The notes under the pieces were generated by a model. The model worked only from the letters and a program-made list of their open reading frames with translations. It was not told where the DNA came from and searched no databases. The position numbers and the translations under genes are program-made. Source: Deltaproteobacteria bacterium (GTDB lineage: Bacteria; Desulfobacterota; GWC2-55-46). Taken from it: a stretch of DNA of 64,000 bases. The stretch covers positions 1-64,000 of the forward strand of contig JACRNL010000007.1 in assembly GCA_016234935.1 (NCBI GenBank), in the 5' to 3' direction. Below are positions 3,761 through 53,887 of this stretch, piece by piece. Every line of letters starts with the position of its first letter. Positions within the stretch are counted from its first letter, which is position 1.

Positions 3761-4722
3761 AGGGGTCTTTGGATAAAAACCTGCAGGCCGCTGATGAGGG
3801 GAAAGAGGCGGCTGCCGAGAATGCCTTTGATCTTGCCGGCGTCATGGAGCTTCGGTTTGATTACAGAGGGGCAAGGGACTGCTATGAACAGGCCACGCGC
3901 CTTGAGCCGCAAAGCAGCGCGTATCTTAACAAGCTCGGCGTGTCATGGGCAAGCATTGGCGATTTAAAAATGGCCATAGGTTGTTATACAAGGGCCCTTG
4001 AGATTGACATTGCCGCGCACGGAGCAGGCCACCAGAATGCCGCCGCATATTACAACAACATCGGCGCGGCATGGGACAGCCTTGGCGATTCAAAGAAGGC
4101 CATCGAGTATTTCACCAAGGCCCTTGAAATAGATATTGCCGCGGGCGGGAACAAAAACCCGAATGTTGCCATAAGGTATAACAACATGGGTCTGTCATGG
4201 AATGCCCTTGGCGATCCCAAGAAGGCGTTGGACTGCTTTACAAAGGCCATTGATATTGACCTTGCTGTGCACGGGGCCGGCCATCCGGATGTCGCTGCGG
4301 ATTACAATAATATCGGCGGGACATGGGAAGCCCTTGGCGACCCCAAAAAGGCCATGGACTGCTATGTAAAGGCCCTTGACATTGACCTTGCCGCATACGG
4401 AGTCAGGCACCCGAAGGCCGCGTTAAGATACAACAACATCGGCTTTACATGGAACGCCCTTGGCGATTCAAAGAAGGCCATAGACTGCTTTGCCAAAGCC
4501 CTTGATGTTGATCTTGCAGCATACGGGGCCAGGCACCCTGACGTCGCCATTGATTGCAACAACATCGGCGCGGCGTGGCATTCACTTGGCGATTTAAAAA
4601 AGGCCGCAGATTACTATGCCAAGGCCCTTGATATTTTCGAGAAGGTCTACGGCCCCGGCCATTCTCATGTTGTGAATTTAAGGGCAAAACTTGAAAAACT
4701 GGCAAAAGAACAGGGTTCATAA
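3718..4722 (+). CDS. TPR-repeat protein, C-terminal half of a frameshifted gene
   Basis: A series of 42-residue tetratricopeptide repeats of the kinesin-light-chain or TPR_12 type. Five or six near-identical units follow the pattern Y-N-N-I-G-x-x-W-x-x-L-G-D-x-K-K-A-x-x-x-x-x-K-A-L-x-I-D-x-A. The ATG at 3718 has no ribosome binding site and lies inside the preceding open frame, so the true start is most likely at 3179 with a frameshift between. Such repeats are protein-protein interaction scaffolds. The high nucleotide identity between units suggests recent internal duplication. Confidence 0.75.
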   Translation: MLKEGGLDGAEELLKGSLDKNLQAADEGKEAAAENAFDLAGVMELRFDYRGARDCYEQATRLEPQSSAYLNKLGVSWASIGDLKMAIGCYTRALEIDIAAHGAGHQNAAAYYNNIGAAWDSLGDSKKAIEYFTKALEIDIAAGGNKNPNVAIRYNNMGLSWNALGDPKKALDCFTKAIDIDLAVHGAGHPDVAADYNNIGGTWEALGDPKKAMDCYVKALDIDLAAYGVRHPKAALRYNNIGFTWNALGDSKKAIDCFAKALDVDLAAYGARHPDVAIDCNNIGAAWHSLGDLKKAADYYAKALDIFEKVYGPGHSHVVNLRAKLEKLAKEQGS

Positions 4723-11040: not shown

Positions 11041-11120
11041 TTGCCCCTTGAAGGGGCTGAGTCCCCTCAGGGGGTCAAACCCCCCTCACTCCCCGCTTTA
11101 GACACACGGGGACAGGGCCT
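11041..11120. repeat. Intergenic palindrome cluster
   Basis: CCCCTTGAAGGGGCTGAG and CCCCTCAGGGGG are followed directly by CCCCGCTTTAGACACACGGGG. The first pair is the element found inside the kinase gene at 8241 and tatB at 54808. The second is the REP family. The two families are often joined. No gene was found in 10920-11246, although short open frames run through the repeats. Confidence 0.75.
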
Positions 11121-11247: not shown

Positions 11248-11459
11248 GGCACCTGCGGTGGGCAAAGCTAAAGGGTTGCATCTTGGCTTTAGCCGTGCGC
11301 AGCACCTGCGGCGGGCAAAGCTAAAGGGTTGTCTCTTGGCTTTAGCCGTGCGCAGCACCTGCGGTGGGCAAAGCTAAAGGGTTGTATCTTGGCTTTAGCC
11401 GTGCGCAGCACCTGCGGCGGGCAAAGCTAAAGGGTTGTATCTTGGCTTTAGCCGTGCGC
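11248..11459 (+). repeat. Tandem array of four 53-bp units
   Basis: Four near-identical 53-bp units start at 11248, 11301, 11354 and 11407, each beginning (G/A)GCACCTGCGG. Every unit contains GCTAAAG and CTTTAGC about 13 bases apart, so each can form a hairpin. Units differ by single bases such as GCGGTGGG against GCGGCGGG. There are no spacers between them, so it is not a CRISPR array. The array ends in a CCTTTCTTTCAAGAAAGG hairpin, and a single inverted copy with the same end lies at 48605-48682. Confidence 0.9.
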
Positions 11460-11633
11460 AGCACCTTTCTTTCAAGAAAGGCAGGTGCGCGGATTTGACA
11501 ACCTAAAAAAATGCGTTATAGTTAACACCGTTCACCCGTTCGTGTCCGCCTCGCCAATCCCCGCTTAAAGCCCGCGGGGACATGACTTATCATCTCGTTA
11601 ATTTCCATAACAGCCCTGACATCGGCGCGGCGC

Positions 11634-11703
11634 GCCCAACACCACTTTCTGTTGCCGATATCTGTATTTGATATACACATTGCGCCGGAAAGTGGCGCCG
11701 GGC
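11634..11703. repeat. 70-bp hairpin element (CCACTTTC family)
   Basis: The ends GCCCAACACCACTTTC and GAAAGTGGCGCCGGGC form an imperfect terminal inverted repeat around an AT-rich centre. The reverse complement closely matches 35610-35678, which lies inside a membrane-protein gene. A third copy with the same ends lies at 53782-53850. Confidence 0.85.
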
Positions 11704-29644: not shown

Positions 29645-29725
29645 ACTCCCCGCTTTAGACACACGGGGACAGGCTCTACCCTCTCCCGCGCCTGCCCTCG
29701 CGTGTCTAAAGCGGGGGAGGGGAGA
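29645..29725. repeat. Paired inverted REP-like elements
   Basis: CCCCGCTTTAGACACACGGGG and, in the opposite orientation, CGCGTGTCTAAAGCGGGGG flank CTCTACCCTCTCCCGCGCC. The two copies could form one long hairpin between two genes of the locus. The same sequence in one orientation is at 11091. Confidence 0.75.
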
Positions 29726-34960: not shown

Positions 34961-37147
34961 ATGATAGACACAATACGCGCATATTTCAATGTCCCCTGCA
35001 CCGCGAGAAGGTGGATGATACTGTTTTTCATCCCTGTCGCCGCGGTGAATATCATCATCTATTACCCGTCGCTCCTTCATTTTATCCGCGGGGACACCTT
35101 TATCTATACCGCGACCACCGCGGCATACAAGGATTTTTACACGCTTGTTTTGAAGTTCTATTCCTACGGCAGGGTCATGCCTTTCAAGAACGAAGACCAA
35201 TTTCTTTTCAGGCCGCTTACGTATATGTGGTTCGGTCTGAGGACGTGGCTCTTCGGATATCATTTCGCGTGGTGGCACGCGGCAGGCGTCGCATTCCATC
35301 TGGCGGCCGCGTGGTGGCTCATGAGGCTTCTCCTCGCCGTGCGCTCCAGCGTCTTGGCCCCGCTGGCAACGCTCTTTTTTTCAACGCTCTACGCGCCGAT
35401 GGGCCTCGTGATATGGGAGGCGACGAGCCCGTATATTATCTCCGTCATCTTCTCGCTGGCGGCGCTGTATTACGCGCTTGTCCATGTGAAGGAGGGGCAG
35501 ACCGGGCGGCAGAGAGTCATTGCCCTCACCGTCTGCCTGACGCTGGCAAGCCTGACCTACGAGATAACTGTCCCGTTCGGCCCGGTGTTCTCCTGCTATC
35601 TGCTCATGACCCAGCGCCACTTTCCGGCACAATCTGTATATCAAATACAAAAATCGACGACAGAAAGTGGTGCTGGGCCAAAGCCGCTTAATAGAAGCTG
35701 GGCGCTCCTGCCTTCTCTGTCGATGATTATATATTTCGCGCTGAATTATTTAGACGGCCTTTTCAATCCATTTCAGTCTTCTGTCAATTATGTGTTTCAT
35801 TATTTCGAGGCAGGCAAAACACTTTATAACTGGTCTGTCGTCGTCTTCTGGTATCTCTATGCCGGAATATTCCCAACGCTTCAGAACTTCTCGGGAGGAG
35901 GACGGGTCGGTTTCAACCTGCCGCTTGACTGGGGCCGTCTCGGCGAGATGCTTTTAAGCCTGAATTGGCAGCCGCTTCCCGTGGTCGCAGGCATCTCGCT
36001 GATCGCGGCGTTTGCCGTCTTTTTCATGGCGAATATCTTCCGTTCCGCATTAAAAGACAGGGCGTCGTTTGTAAAGGACTGGTCGTTTTCCCTGCTTACG
36101 TTCGCATTGCTCATCATAGTCTCGCTTCTCGTCATACTGGGCAGGGGGAACAAGCTTGGGCTGGATTATCTGAAGGAATGCTTGGAGTATTCATATCCGT
36201 TTTGGGCTTTTTTGACGGTCTTTCTGTTTTCGCAGGGCATGGCAGGTTGGCAGGAAATGCTGTCAAAGGGAGTGGGCAGACAGACCGGATACATCGCGGT
36301 AACCGGTCTTTTGATATTGATACCATTTGGCGGCAAAAGAATCTACGAGACAAACGTGGCTCAGAAAGAGGTATTTGACTCCCAGCGCAGGTTCGCCGAG
36401 GAGCTTGAAGGTTTCGTCAGCGCCCACAGGGACGAGACGGATTTTTCATTTGACTTCATAAACCGCCCGCCTGAGGACTCGGAGCTTACCTTCATGGAGC
36501 AGGGGCCTCTAAAGAGATACTTCATCTCAAGCGCGCTTTATCAGGATTATATCAATGAAAAAACACCCAAGTATCTGCTGGACTATCATGTGGCAAACGG
36601 CGGCAGCGTCATGAATACGGCGCTTGCCGCTGAAAGGGTCTCGGCGGCTGCCGCCAAAATGCTCGGCATCGGGCCGGCGGAGCTTCTAAGAACGGCAAAT
36701 GTGAAGGTTATAACCGCGTCGTCGCAGATGTTCGCCGATGACACCTATACGCACGCAAAATATCTCATGGAGGAAAACCGGACGGTCTGGCACGCCGCCG
36801 CTCCTCCCGTATATCCGCAGTGGGTGAAAGTCGCGTATTTGGCGCCTGTGATAATCAATCATTTGGAGATGCGCGCGCAGGATACAAGCCCGGCCGGCTC
36901 GGAACAGAAAAGGGCGCCGAGGGATTTTGTGTTTCAGGGCAGCCGAGACGGCTCGCAGTGGAAAAATCTTCTTGAGGTCAAAAATAATCTTTATGAACAC
37001 GGCGGCCAGTGGAAGGGGTGGGATGTTAAGAATGATGACGGCTTCAGACACTACCGGATATTTATAAAGGCCGGCGGAGACCCGAACGTCCTGACCATAA
37101 AGCAGATACGGCTGGAAAACCTGAGGAGGGTAAAGCACAATGGCTGA
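34961..37147 (+). CDS. Polytopic GT-C-like membrane protein with discoidin-like C-terminus
   Basis: 728 residues. Residues 18-470 have about ten hydrophobic segments with an acidic residue in the first periplasmic loop (HFIRGDTFIYTATT), as in GT-C glycosyltransferases that use polyprenyl-phosphate sugars. Residues 580-725 resemble an F5/8 type C (discoidin) carbohydrate-binding domain (YPQWVKVAYLAPVIINHLEM, DFVFQGSRDGSQWKNLLEV, HYRIFIKAGGDPNVLTIKQI). A 69-bp hairpin element adds 23 residues (QRHFPAQSVYQIQKSTTESG) in a loop near residue 220. Its C-terminal domain matches the two at the end of the next protein, and the genes overlap by 8 bases. Confidence 0.75.
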   Translation: MIDTIRAYFNVPCTARRWMILFFIPVAAVNIIIYYPSLLHFIRGDTFIYTATTAAYKDFYTLVLKFYSYGRVMPFKNEDQFLFRPLTYMWFGLRTWLFGYHFAWWHAAGVAFHLAAAWWLMRLLLAVRSSVLAPLATLFFSTLYAPMGLVIWEATSPYIISVIFSLAALYYALVHVKEGQTGRQRVIALTVCLTLASLTYEITVPFGPVFSCYLLMTQRHFPAQSVYQIQKSTTESGAGPKPLNRSWALLPSLSMIIYFALNYLDGLFNPFQSSVNYVFHYFEAGKTLYNWSVVVFWYLYAGIFPTLQNFSGGGRVGFNLPLDWGRLGEMLLSLNWQPLPVVAGISLIAAFAVFFMANIFRSALKDRASFVKDWSFSLLTFALLIIVSLLVILGRGNKLGLDYLKECLEYSYPFWAFLTVFLFSQGMAGWQEMLSKGVGRQTGYIAVTGLLILIPFGGKRIYETNVAQKEVFDSQRRFAEELEGFVSAHRDETDFSFDFINRPPEDSELTFMEQGPLKRYFISSALYQDYINEKTPKYLLDYHVANGGSVMNTALAAERVSAAAAKMLGIGPAELLRTANVKVITASSQMFADDTYTHAKYLMEENRTVWHAAAPPVYPQWVKVAYLAPVIINHLEMRAQDTSPAGSEQKRAPRDFVFQGSRDGSQWKNLLEVKNNLYEHGGQWKGWDVKNDDGFRHYRIFIKAGGDPNVLTIKQIRLENLRRVKHNG
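35610..35678. repeat. 69-bp hairpin element inserted in frame in a membrane-protein gene
   Basis: CCCAGCGCCACTTTCC and GGAAAGTGGTGCTGGGC-type ends (here GAAAGTGGTGCTGGGC) flank an AT-rich centre. Read in the gene frame it is exactly 23 codons without a stop. It matches the reverse complement of 11634-11703 over nearly its whole length, so it is a dispersed element and not part of the ancestral gene. Confidence 0.88.
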
Positions 37148-39875
37148 AAAAGGGCGAGACGAAAATAACGGCGGCTCCGTGATTGAACGGTGGGGTTTTT
37201 ATCTTATCGCAATCGGCATACCACTTGCGATAGTTGCCCTCTGGCACACCACTAACACCGCCTATCCGAACGACGATTGCGCCAATTACTTTGAGACCGC
37301 GCAGGACATTTACTTCAGGTTCAAGCAAGGCGGCGTGATTGACGGCCTCTGGGCGTCGTATGCCGTGAGGGGCTGGCGGCCGCTTTTATTCCCGTTGATG
37401 GCCGTGCCGTTCATAGCGGTAACCAGCGACAATATCCTCCTTGCAACGGCCCTCACTCTTGGCTCGCTATACTTCCTGTTCCTGACGTATGCGTATATGA
37501 CGGCAAGGGAGTACATAACTCCGGCCCGCGCGTGCCTTGCGACGGTTTTCGTTGCCACGATACCGTGGCTTGTGAACTTTGCGTACTACTTCATGTCCGA
37601 GATGGCGCTGATGGCCTGCTCGATGGCCGCGCTTTATCACCTGAAAAAAGCGGATATGTTTGCTTCAAGGCGCCATTCCATCTTCGCTGCCGTATGGCTG
37701 GGGCTGGGCTTTGCGGTGCGGCCGGTCGAGTTCACCCTTGCGTTCGGTCTTCTTGCGGCGGCGCTTATTTATCTTTCATGGAGAAAAGGGATTATAAGCG
37801 GAAGGGACGTCGCGGCAACGCTCTCGGCCGTCGTTCTCATGCTGGCGCTTTTTTTAGCCGCGGCCAAAGGGTGGATAGAGCACCGCCCGGCCTTGAGGAT
37901 TTACGGCGCGGTCTTGCTGCTGATTACCGCCCTGCCGCTTGTTTTCAACAAAAAATGGAAGCTCCACGCGCCATATCAATGGGCCGTCTTCATCTGCAAT
38001 ATGATGATCATCGTCTGGTGGCTCCCTTACATGAAAAATCTCTATGATTGGATACAGGAGACCACCGGCGTTGTCGGGCAGCTTTACCACGACCGCGGCC
38101 AGATGAGTTTTATCAAGGCCGTCTACGCATTTTTTTCAAACCTCGGCGGCTGGCCTCTTCTTGTGACATTAGGGCTTTTCGCCGCCGCCCTCGCGGCCTC
38201 CCGGAGAAAGAAGACATCCGCGCTGACCGGCTTTCTGGCTGCCAACGGCGCGGCCATCTCGATGATAATCCCGCCGGTTTTCATGCTCTCGCTTACGACT
38301 GACATCGCGTACAGGAGGGCCTTCGCGGGCTTTGCCGTGCTTCTGCTCGTCAATGGCGTATTCGCGGCGCACCATGAACTCATCTTGCCGAGGGCGCGTT
38401 ATGTCCTTGTCGCGATTCTGGCCTCGGCCCAGATAGCGCTGGCCTATGCGTATACGTTTAACACCATGTCCGGCGTTACCCCGCTGATAGTTAAATTCTA
38501 CGAAACGCCGGGCAACGCCATGAAAGGCGGCGACCCGTCGGAGAGGTTTTATAACAGGCTGAAGAGGTTCCCCTTCAAGGGGCACACCGAGATTGCCGCC
38601 ATGAGCCTTTCCCAGACTCAGTATCAGGAAAGGCCTTTTGACACGTCGGCGCTAAACGTTGTCGCAAAAAAAGACGGCAGCGACATACGCTTTTCGTATC
38701 CGGCGGTGTTTTTCAGCCTTGAGGAGGGCTACGCGCTCCTTCATAAAAACTGGAAATACGCCGTTCTGGACGTTTCCACCGGAAATCCGGCCAGCGATCC
38801 GTATTCGCGTCTTACGGCGGATATGATCGAAAGATGGAGGCGGGGGGACTTAAGCTCTGTCGGACTGGTGTATGCCGCCGAAATCCATGTCCCGGCGGCA
38901 TGGCTTGAAGGCGCGCAGCCCTCGGAAAAGACCATAATCCTCCTTGAGATGACTAAAGATCCGGCAGAGGTGGATAAAGACCTGGAGAAGATTGCCGCTT
39001 CATCAGTTTTGCAGCCGGGAGATAAAGACATGCAGGCTGACCGGCTCATGGAGACAAACAAGGTCATCTGGCACGCCCAGTCGCCGCCGAAATACCCGGA
39101 GTGGCTGCGCGCCGATTATTCAAAGCCTAAAAGGTTTAACCGTATAGCCTTGCGGGCGCAGGAGATCAGTCCCAAGGGCGACGAATACGTCAGGGGGCCA
39201 AAGGACTTCACGCTTCAGGCGAGCAACGACGCAAAGAGGTGGAAAGACCTCTTGAGGGTAAAGGACAACACGTTTACGCATGGAGGGCAGTGGAAGGAGT
39301 GGGCTCTTGAGAACGACAGGGCGTTCAGTCATTACCGCATCCTTATTACGGCCAGCGGACATCCTGAACTGCTTACCTTGAAGCAGATAAGGCTGACCGA
39401 GGTCGTTGCCGACCCTGTTGCCCGCCACGCGGGCGTTGAGGGCATAACGGCGTCATCCAATCTGTTTCCGGGCAAGCCGGGCCTTTCCGCAGGCCTTCTA
39501 ATGGAGGAAAATAAGACCATCTGGCACGCCAGGAGGCCGCCGAAATACCCTGAGTGGGTGAGGGTTGTCTATGGAAAGCCGGAGAGGATAAACCATCTGG
39601 AGCTTCGCTCTCAGGAGTCGAGCCCCGGCGGATCGGAGCACACGAGGGGGGTGAGGGACTTCAGGCTTCAGGCCAGCAGCGACGGCAGGAAGTGGAAAGA
39701 CCTTCTTGACGTGAAAAACAACGTCTTTACCGGCGGCGGGCAGTGGAAGCAATGGGACTTCAAGAATGACGAGGGCTACCGTTACTACCGCATCTACATG
39801 ACTGCGGGCAATGACCCGAATCTCCTTACGCTTACGCAGATGCGTCTGTCCGAAAGGAAGCTCATTAACCCTTAA
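37140..39875 (+). CDS. GT-C-type membrane glycosyltransferase with two discoidin-like domains
   Basis: 911 residues. Residues 18-470 form a polytopic GT-C domain. The acidic loop motif YPNDDCANYF near residue 42 fits the DD/DE motif of ArnT/PMT-like enzymes that take sugars from polyprenyl phosphate and act outside the cytoplasmic membrane. Two C-terminal domains (about 630-755 and 775-905) are each F5/8 type C like: KVIWHAQSPPKYPEWLRADY / KTIWHARRPPKYPEWVRVVY and DFTLQASNDAKRWKDLLRV / DFRLQASSDGRKWKDLLDV. They are near duplicates of each other and of the preceding protein's tail. They probably hold the enzyme on its glycan. Confidence 0.8.
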   Translation: MAEKGRDENNGGSVIERWGFYLIAIGIPLAIVALWHTTNTAYPNDDCANYFETAQDIYFRFKQGGVIDGLWASYAVRGWRPLLFPLMAVPFIAVTSDNILLATALTLGSLYFLFLTYAYMTAREYITPARACLATVFVATIPWLVNFAYYFMSEMALMACSMAALYHLKKADMFASRRHSIFAAVWLGLGFAVRPVEFTLAFGLLAAALIYLSWRKGIISGRDVAATLSAVVLMLALFLAAAKGWIEHRPALRIYGAVLLLITALPLVFNKKWKLHAPYQWAVFICNMMIIVWWLPYMKNLYDWIQETTGVVGQLYHDRGQMSFIKAVYAFFSNLGGWPLLVTLGLFAAALAASRRKKTSALTGFLAANGAAISMIIPPVFMLSLTTDIAYRRAFAGFAVLLLVNGVFAAHHELILPRARYVLVAILASAQIALAYAYTFNTMSGVTPLIVKFYETPGNAMKGGDPSERFYNRLKRFPFKGHTEIAAMSLSQTQYQERPFDTSALNVVAKKDGSDIRFSYPAVFFSLEEGYALLHKNWKYAVLDVSTGNPASDPYSRLTADMIERWRRGDLSSVGLVYAAEIHVPAAWLEGAQPSEKTIILLEMTKDPAEVDKDLEKIAASSVLQPGDKDMQADRLMETNKVIWHAQSPPKYPEWLRADYSKPKRFNRIALRAQEISPKGDEYVRGPKDFTLQASNDAKRWKDLLRVKDNTFTHGGQWKEWALENDRAFSHYRILITASGHPELLTLKQIRLTEVVADPVARHAGVEGITASSNLFPGKPGLSAGLLMEENKTIWHARRPPKYPEWVRVVYGKPERINHLELRSQESSPGGSEHTRGVRDFRLQASSDGRKWKDLLDVKNNVFTGGGQWKQWDFKNDEGYRYYRIYMTAGNDPNLLTLTQMRLSERKLINP

Positions 39876-47933: not shown

Positions 47934-48605
47934 ATGAGGATTCTTGTAATCGAAGACGAAAAAGACCTCGCAGGGATAATCAAAAAGGGGCTTGAGGAGG
48001 AGGGCTACGTCGTGGACACGGCCAACGACGGGGAGGAGGGCCTCTATATGGCCGAGAACTTCCCGGCCGACGTCATAGTCCTCGATATAATGCTTTCCGT
48101 GATGGACGGCCTGACCATGCTCACAAAGATGCGCAAAAAGGGCATTGACACGCCGGTCATCCTCCTTACGGCCCGCGACGCCCTTATTGACAAGATAAAG
48201 GGTCTTGATACCGGCGCGGACGATTACTTGACCAAGCCGTTTGTCTTCGGAGAGCTTCTGGCAAGGGTGCGCTCCCTCATACGCAGGAAGAGCGAGGTCA
48301 AACAGGCCGTCATACGCGTGGGGGACCTTGAGATAAACACCGCCAGCCACGCGGTCAAACGCGGCGCAAAGGCCATAACGCTTTCCGCAAGGGAGTATAT
48401 GCTGCTTGAGTACCTCGCGTACAAAAAGGACAACGTGGTAAGCAGAACAGACATAGTGGAGCACATATATAACGAAGACTCGGAGATGGATTCCAACGTC
48501 GTGGACGTTTACATCAATTACCTGCGCAACAAGATAGACAAGGGTTTTGACAAGAAACTCATCCACACGGTGCGCGGCGCAGGCTACATGCTGAAGGAAG
48601 AATAA
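47934..48605 (+). CDS. OmpR/PhoB-family response regulator
   Basis: 223 residues. Receiver domain with acidic pair in LVIEDEKDLAGII, acceptor Asp in VIVLDIMLSVMDGL, Thr in VILLTARDAL and Lys in YLTKPFVFGELLARV. The winged-helix DNA-binding domain begins near 130 (VGDLEINTASHAVKRGAKAI, LSAREYMLLEYLAYKKDNVV, SNVVDVYINYLRNKID). It is close to CusR/QseB-type regulators. The likely cognate kinase follows after a repeat-filled gap. It may be co-transcribed with cytochrome b, which ends 9 bases earlier. Confidence 0.9.
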   Translation: MRILVIEDEKDLAGIIKKGLEEEGYVVDTANDGEEGLYMAENFPADVIVLDIMLSVMDGLTMLTKMRKKGIDTPVILLTARDALIDKIKGLDTGADDYLTKPFVFGELLARVRSLIRRKSEVKQAVIRVGDLEINTASHAVKRGAKAITLSAREYMLLEYLAYKKDNVVSRTDIVEHIYNEDSEMDSNVVDVYINYLRNKIDKGFDKKLIHTVRGAGYMLKEE

Positions 48606-48682
48606 CCTGCCTTTTTTGAAAAAAAGGCGCTGCGCACGGCTAAAGCCTGAATATAACCCTCGTAGCTTTGCCCCGCCGCAGG
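48605..48682 (-). repeat. Solo inverted copy of the 53-bp tandem-array unit
   Basis: Read on the minus strand it runs CCTGCGG...GGGCAAAGCTA, an AGGGTT core, GGCTTTAGCCGTGCGCAG and then a CCTTTTTTTTC hairpin ending AAGGCAGG. It shares almost every segment, including the terminal hairpin, with the four-unit array at 11248-11490. It begins 1 base before the stop codon of the regulator gene ends. Confidence 0.8.
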
Positions 48683-53566: not shown

Positions 53567-53690
53567 CAGGCTGCTGAAAAAGCCCCATCTACGTCGTTGC
53601 CTTCGTCGCTCGTCACTGCGGCGTGCCCAAAAGCACGCCTCATTCCTCGCTCCTCGTCGCCTAGTAGCTGGGGCTTTTTGAGCAGCCTGC
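53566..53690. repeat. 125-bp palindromic element, copy 1
   Basis: The ends GCAGGCTGCTGAAAAAGCCCC and GGGGCTTTTTGAGCAGCCTGC form a long inverted repeat. The centre contains GCGTGCCCAAAAGCACGC. It starts at the stop codon of the nicotinate phosphoribosyltransferase gene and could end its transcription through the CTTTTTG arm. A second, longer copy follows directly. (Left end shown as GCAGGCTGCTG then AAAAAGCCCC.). Confidence 0.85.
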
Positions 53691-53695
53691 CCTTA

Positions 53696-53887
53696 GCAGG
53701 CCGCCTCAAGCGCCCCATCTACTGCGTTGGCATTAAAGCTCGGAACGAACGGCGTGCCCAAAAGCACGCCTCGTTCCTCCTCAGCACCACTTTCCATCGC
53801 CAAGAGTTCATGCATAATACAAACGTTGGCAGAGGAAAGTGGTGCTGGGCTCGTCGCCTAGCAGCTGGGGCTTTTTGAGCGGCCTGC
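53696..53887. repeat. 125-bp palindromic element, copy 2, interrupted by a hairpin element
   Basis: This copy has the same ends (GCAGGCCGCCTCAAGCGCCCC and GGGGCTTTTTGAGCGGCCTGC in part) and the same centre GCGTGCCCAAAAGCACGC. It is 192 bp because the 69-bp hairpin at 53782-53850 sits in it. Removing the hairpin leaves 123 bp, matching copy 1. The remaining 125 bases up to 54012 show no gene. Confidence 0.85.
53782..53850. repeat. 69-bp hairpin element nested in another repeat
   Basis: CAGCACCACTTTCC and GGAAAGTGGTGCTGGGC are its ends; the centre differs from the other two copies but keeps an AT-rich ATAATACAAACG part. It is the third member of the family at 11634 and 35610. It interrupts the second 125-bp element, so it inserted later. 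Confidence 0.88.

Follow-up and report, generated by a model that had tools for sequence, protein, structure and literature searches.

The window, by which we mean the whole 64,000-nucleotide stretch of deltaproteobacterial DNA analysed here, carries a hairpin-forming sequence inside an open reading frame and nearly its reverse complement in an intergenic region. This raises the question of whether a mobile non-coding element has been turned into protein codons at this locus, since the original prediction was that a membrane glycosyltransferase had gained 23 codons from a 69-bp mobile hairpin. The explanation that best accommodates the data, and that we consider very probable, is that a short, non-autonomous and RPE-like mobile palindromic element inserted in frame in the window gene. 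The features discussed below are collected in Table 1.

Table 1. Coordinates in the window of the host gene, the intragenic element, its sister copies and the related host repeat
Feature	Coordinates	Strand	Evidence or remark
Host gene; product a multi-pass membrane protein of 728 aa with an F5/8 type C domain at its C-terminal end	34961..37147	+	ORF, Pfam, hydropathy, distant homologues
Palindromic element in gene	35610..35677	+	From the second base of codon 217 through codon 239; family alignment, ends, hairpin fold, reading frame
Left arm CCCAGCGCCACTTTC	35610..35624	+	Conserved across family
Variable A-type core	35625..35662	+	Family alignment
Right arm GAAAGTGGTGCTGGG	35663..35677	+	Conserved across family
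Closest sister copy, intergenic	11635..11702	-	60/68 identical, inverted orientation
Third window copy, B type, 70 bp, intergenic, within another repeat	53780..53849	+	
Host repeat, right-hand remainder after third copy	53850..53887	+	95% identical to 53653-53690
Empty site: neighbouring host-repeat copy without element, upstream of 53780	53653..53690	+	

The intragenic sequence is an imperfect palindrome of 68 bp with CCC and GGG as its outermost bases; it amounts to 22 codons and 2 nt and is translated as (T)QRHFPAQSVYQIQKSTTESGAG. Its predicted resemblance to the reverse complement of the intergenic positions 11634-11703 was borne out, as the two copies are 88% identical in inverted orientation over 68-69 bp (E = 2.4e-19) and both fold as stable hairpins (z = -5.8 and -3.3, relative to dinucleotide shuffles). 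The intragenic copy is also in frame, the GC bias by codon position having the same phase before and after the element in the 728-codon ORF. However, the element is not an exact multiple of three as had been claimed: the conserved unit measures 68 bp, and the figure of 69 bp includes one flanking C. The frame would be kept by the net change at the target, not by the element's own 68 bp.

The match between the two hairpins is real, but they are not a pair, as at least 36 copies of the family were found in the 2.15-Mb genome, mostly in intergenic regions and some in other repeats. This number comprises 25 copies with the strict end pattern, 3 with a longer core and 8 in which one of the ends departs from the pattern by 1-2 bases, whereas the reversed pattern, used as a control for the 25 strict copies, gave none. 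The family units are 67-70 bp long and consist of inverted ends of 15-17 bp, which are constant (CCCAGCACCACTTTC...GAAAGTGGTGCTGGG), around a highly variable core of ~38 bp. Two core types occur in the own genome, A in units of 67-69 bp and B in units of 69-70 bp. The same ends around quite different cores were found in five genomes of the same family as the window genome (G003, G006, G010, G013 and G018), in two of the same order (G043 and G044) and in one of another family of the same class (G057). All public records with the strict pattern were groundwater 'Deltaproteobacteria' metagenome assemblies, except one Novosphingobium hairpin. Neither this match (L095) nor another in G030 (L078) has the CCCAGC ends, and both were excluded. 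A literature search by end sequence returned no relevant earlier description. Three B-type copies of the own genome, at C3:53701-53796 (L036), C3:107200-107296 (L035) and C12:97351-97447 (L137), are 96-97 bp long and contain a second hairpin in the core. This nested hairpin is of the CCCTCGCATGTCTAAAGCGGGGG type, like the CCCCGCTTTAGACACACGGGG repeat found at 11090-11120 and 29647-29677 of the window.

That the element moves or has moved is seen directly from one host repeat that exists in empty and filled versions, one filled copy being the third copy of the window. Elsewhere, the empty version of this repeat reads GGCGTCGAG GAGT GAGGAACGAGG (L050 and L051), and in three filled copies GGCGTCGAG or GGCGTCAAG is followed by the element and then by GAGGAACGAGG. 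In one of these three the element is reversed in orientation. Comparison with the empty sites, here and in the era and murD genes described below, indicates an apparent loss of target bases at insertion, namely 4, 9 and about 45 in the host repeat, era and murD, respectively. No convincing target-site duplication was found among 77 copies, as direct flank repeats of 2-4 bp were about as frequent as by chance and none exceeded 5 bp. The Y1/RAYT transposase domain (PF01797), present in 5 of 14 control genomes, was absent from the own genome, and a search of six draft genomes with the exact 11-13 terminal bases found no facing pair of ends at a spacing that would suit an autonomous IS. Since no autonomous partner, RAYT or target duplication was found in these searches, active transposition is not proven.

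The hairpins might instead be conserved terminators, binding sites for proteins or structures in RNA, which arose or were retained through function and not through mobility. The two arms do covary, with 27 joint changes at positions 1, 4 and 7 compared to 6.8 expected, and many copies are intergenic, some of them within palindromic flanks, as function would suggest. On the other hand, no Rfam match was found anywhere in the window, and function leaves aside the empty and filled sites, the insertion in other repeats and the occurrence of both orientations at one site, while the intragenic copies lie in several frames, as mobility would give. We therefore regard conservation by function as a very unlikely explanation of the family.

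Insertions of the element in genes would persist only if they alter the length, on balance, by a multiple of three nucleotides and if the copy is free of stops in the frame used there. Open frames through the copies numbered 276 compared to 215 in shuffles, an excess that comes partly from stop-free arms common to all copies. All copies were translated together with their surroundings in order to find in-frame cases in recognisable genes, and the host proteins were examined by family assignment and by alignment to solved structures. In the own genome, in-frame copies were identified in MurD (...AAELMDSGA-aphhfssftfssntdivngkwcgaE-MVIVSPGVP...) and SelB (...IFKAVRA-psttfhrqefmrntnvgsekwcwa-RCTVSFF...), at loci L195 and L188. 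In G003, the element is in frame in Era (DTPGIHAGRGA-psatfhhkpsmphkcmrrkvalg-EFM), in an NtrC-type regulator, where it separates the AAA+ lid from the Fis HTH, in BioD, and in the C-terminal tails of CobM and a small membrane protein (loci L082, L072, L172, L174 and L121). A further copy is in frame in RdgB of G018 (L184). The element is read in more than one frame, as the translations QRHFP...ESGAG and PSATF...KVALG show. Long ORFs through other copies, such as L125, L168 and L102, correspond to no recognisable protein and were not counted as genes.

Two of these hosts could be compared with orthologues. The Era insert was absent from all 29 fetched orthologues, and in nearly all other genomes listed the match splits at the insert point. 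At the DNA level, relatives have 9 nt at this position (such as CTTTTGAAC) where G003 has 72 nt, a net gain of 63 nt. The MurD insert was likewise absent from 29 of 29 fetched orthologues. There, however, the stretch corresponds to about 45 nt of native sequence, so that the element replaces about 15 native residues and the protein is longer by about 9 residues on balance; this case counts against simple addition. Both proteins are the sole Era of G003 and the sole MurD of the own genome, the next matches being only about 30-33% identical, and since no other Era or MurD is present in those genomes, the insert-bearing proteins are presumably still active. The presence of the same ends across genera, the two orientations and the in-frame copies in MurD, SelB, Era, BioD, the NtrC-type regulator and RdgB together support mobility. 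At the level of the family, the conversion of a mobile non-coding hairpin into protein codons is well supported.

The public relatives are metagenome-assembled drafts, and a repeat could have been misjoined into their genes during assembly. We give this a negligible probability, because ordinary reads can span a repeat of 68 bp and because every intragenic copy has its own core and a kept frame, in several genomes that were assembled separately.

For the window gene itself, the glycosyltransferase assignment is not established. The product is a membrane protein, but no glycosyltransferase family profile of Pfam or NCBIfam matched it, and the only indication in that direction is a weak GT-C-like resemblance. 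A profile search gave the C-terminal F5/8 type C domain of Pfam alone. The homologues are large membrane proteins of 22-32% identity, and no close orthologue of the 728-aa gene was found among 58 relatives, 47 other genomes of the order, a 395-genome sample of the phylum and the genome collection. A single-sequence AlphaFold model of the host protein had a mean pLDDT of 40 and gave no usable structure. The region 34961-39875 of the window holds two neighbouring genes for membrane proteins. One has a single C-terminal F5/8 type C domain and the other has two, and these domains are 48-55% identical to each other.

The distant homologues nevertheless bear on the position of the insert. When 12 of them were placed in a multiple alignment, 11 showed a short loop at the position taken up by the 23 residues. 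Most local alignments to such homologues end at residues 201-218, and when the 23 residues are removed, most of the alignments that had ended by residue 218 run further. In a deletion scan against a profile of the homologues, dropping residues 217-239 cost no score, which may be taken as support, and not as proof, of an insertion in the window gene, as several other stretches were equally free. The insert is hydrophilic, with a mean hydropathy of -0.97. The failure to find an insert-free orthologue of the window gene among the genomes searched counts against the insertion reading at this locus. The original idea is thus right in kind, as murD and era with their insert-free orthologues show, but the description of the locus as a clear case of protein gain is too strong for the 728-aa gene, for which no close orthologue was found.

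With no orthologue to exclude it directly, the reverse order of events can also be proposed, in which the membrane protein has had the 23 codons from early on and the gene was the source of the intergenic copies. Such an origin is extremely unlikely in view of the number of copies in this genome, the presence of the family in genera without the gene, the copies in unrelated genes whose orthologues have no insert, and the short loop of the distant homologues. A second objection is that the ORF might be a decaying gene whose frame stays open across the element by chance, in which case no working protein would have gained anything from it. That the gene was found in the own genome alone among the genomes searched would agree with decay, but the ORF is intact across 728 codons, its GC periodicity is of the coding type before the insert as well as after it, and the genome's sole MurD carries such an insert, which makes tolerance in working genes plausible. 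A pseudogene is in our opinion unlikely. Under the preferred reading of an in-frame insertion, the new residues of a surviving insert, ~21-24 in number, would lie at places where the fold can accommodate them. The copy in the window gene would be such a survivor that lengthened a membrane-protein loop by about 23 residues, and its effect would be neutral or mildly altering and not a new function.

The flanks of the copies may give a hint of the manner of insertion. Among the 77 copies, which are not independent, the first four flank bases were complementary at 157 positions compared to 103 expected, a value reached in none of 5000 shuffles. This complementarity is a lead only, as the element itself may include some of the outer bases. 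It extends to 11 bp at C3:54205 (ATACAAGAAG/CTTCTTGTAT), and the flanks of the window copy at 35610, tga and cca, show none. Some copies are located at hairpins that resemble terminators, which would suit a preference for the centres of palindromes. As a speculative and rather doubtful extension, a palindrome family with constant ends and freely changing cores might spread without its own transposase and insert at small palindromes, losing target bases in the process. Repair or replication might, for instance, involve hairpin-templated copying of the element. The family might in this manner have added ~21-24 residues to housekeeping proteins repeatedly and independently, in bacteria that are not known as endosymbionts.

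The in-frame insertion of palindromes has a precedent, described until now chiefly in Rickettsia and related bacteria. RPEs are found in frame in many conserved genes, the product of one of which, guanylate kinase, was shown to be active, and they have also been reported in Wolbachia (PMC2229807, PMC10969869, PMC3767692). The family described here resembles them in its palindromes with inverted ends, its long stem-loop fold, the lack, for the most part, of a known mover, and its location both between genes and in frame in conserved genes, the added residues being tolerated in RPE hosts. It is set apart by length and host: RPEs measure about 100-150 bp, whereas the units are 67-70 bp here (96-97 bp with the second insert), and the bacteria are groundwater 'Deltaproteobacteria', not Rickettsiales. 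The end sequences are also different, and the cores differ almost completely between subfamilies. MITEs are short, non-coding and dispersed, have terminal inverted repeats of about 15-30 bp, and some fuse with ORFs (PMC10969869, PMC3733652). The family is similarly short, with terminal inverted repeats and no coding capacity of its own, but the 77 copies showed no target-site duplication, target bases seemed to be lost in the three comparisons above, and no autonomous IS with the same exact ends was found in the six draft genomes. REPs of the GTAG/CGTC class are dispersed palindromes, mainly extragenic with some in ORFs (PMC3733652), a distribution that the family shares. In contrast to REPs and REPINs, which RAYT transposases move, it has no GTAG or CGTC tag, the ends being CCCAGC...GCTGGG in the copies listed, its unit is larger, and the window's genome has no Y1 transposase. 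The family is thus filed neither with the RPEs (length and host) nor with the REPs (no tag and no RAYT), and a MITE designation agrees with its architecture and not with the lack of target duplication. We class it as a protein-coding palindromic mobile element of a family separate from the RPEs.

What is new is the host lineage, the design of constant ends with a variable core, and the hits in normally essential genes (MurD and Era) whose orthologues are insert-free. In-frame palindromic inserts were formerly viewed mainly as a peculiarity of Rickettsia and Wolbachia, apart from some REPs in ORFs, and a 2024 review considered the same route of protein evolution merely conceivable in other prokaryotes (PMC10969869). 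They are now found in an unrelated group, with insert-free orthologues in dozens of genomes, which makes the building of protein segments from mobile repeats directly testable, as the age of an insert and the selection on it can be read from relatives.

The window contains other repeats as well. A tandem array of four copies of a 53-bp unit (11249-11513) lies just upstream of the sister element, and a related inverted sequence is found at 48605-48660. At 3919-4635, six or more tandem coding repeats of 126 bp, which start with TTGGCGAT and are 70-80% alike, have a TPR-type appearance.
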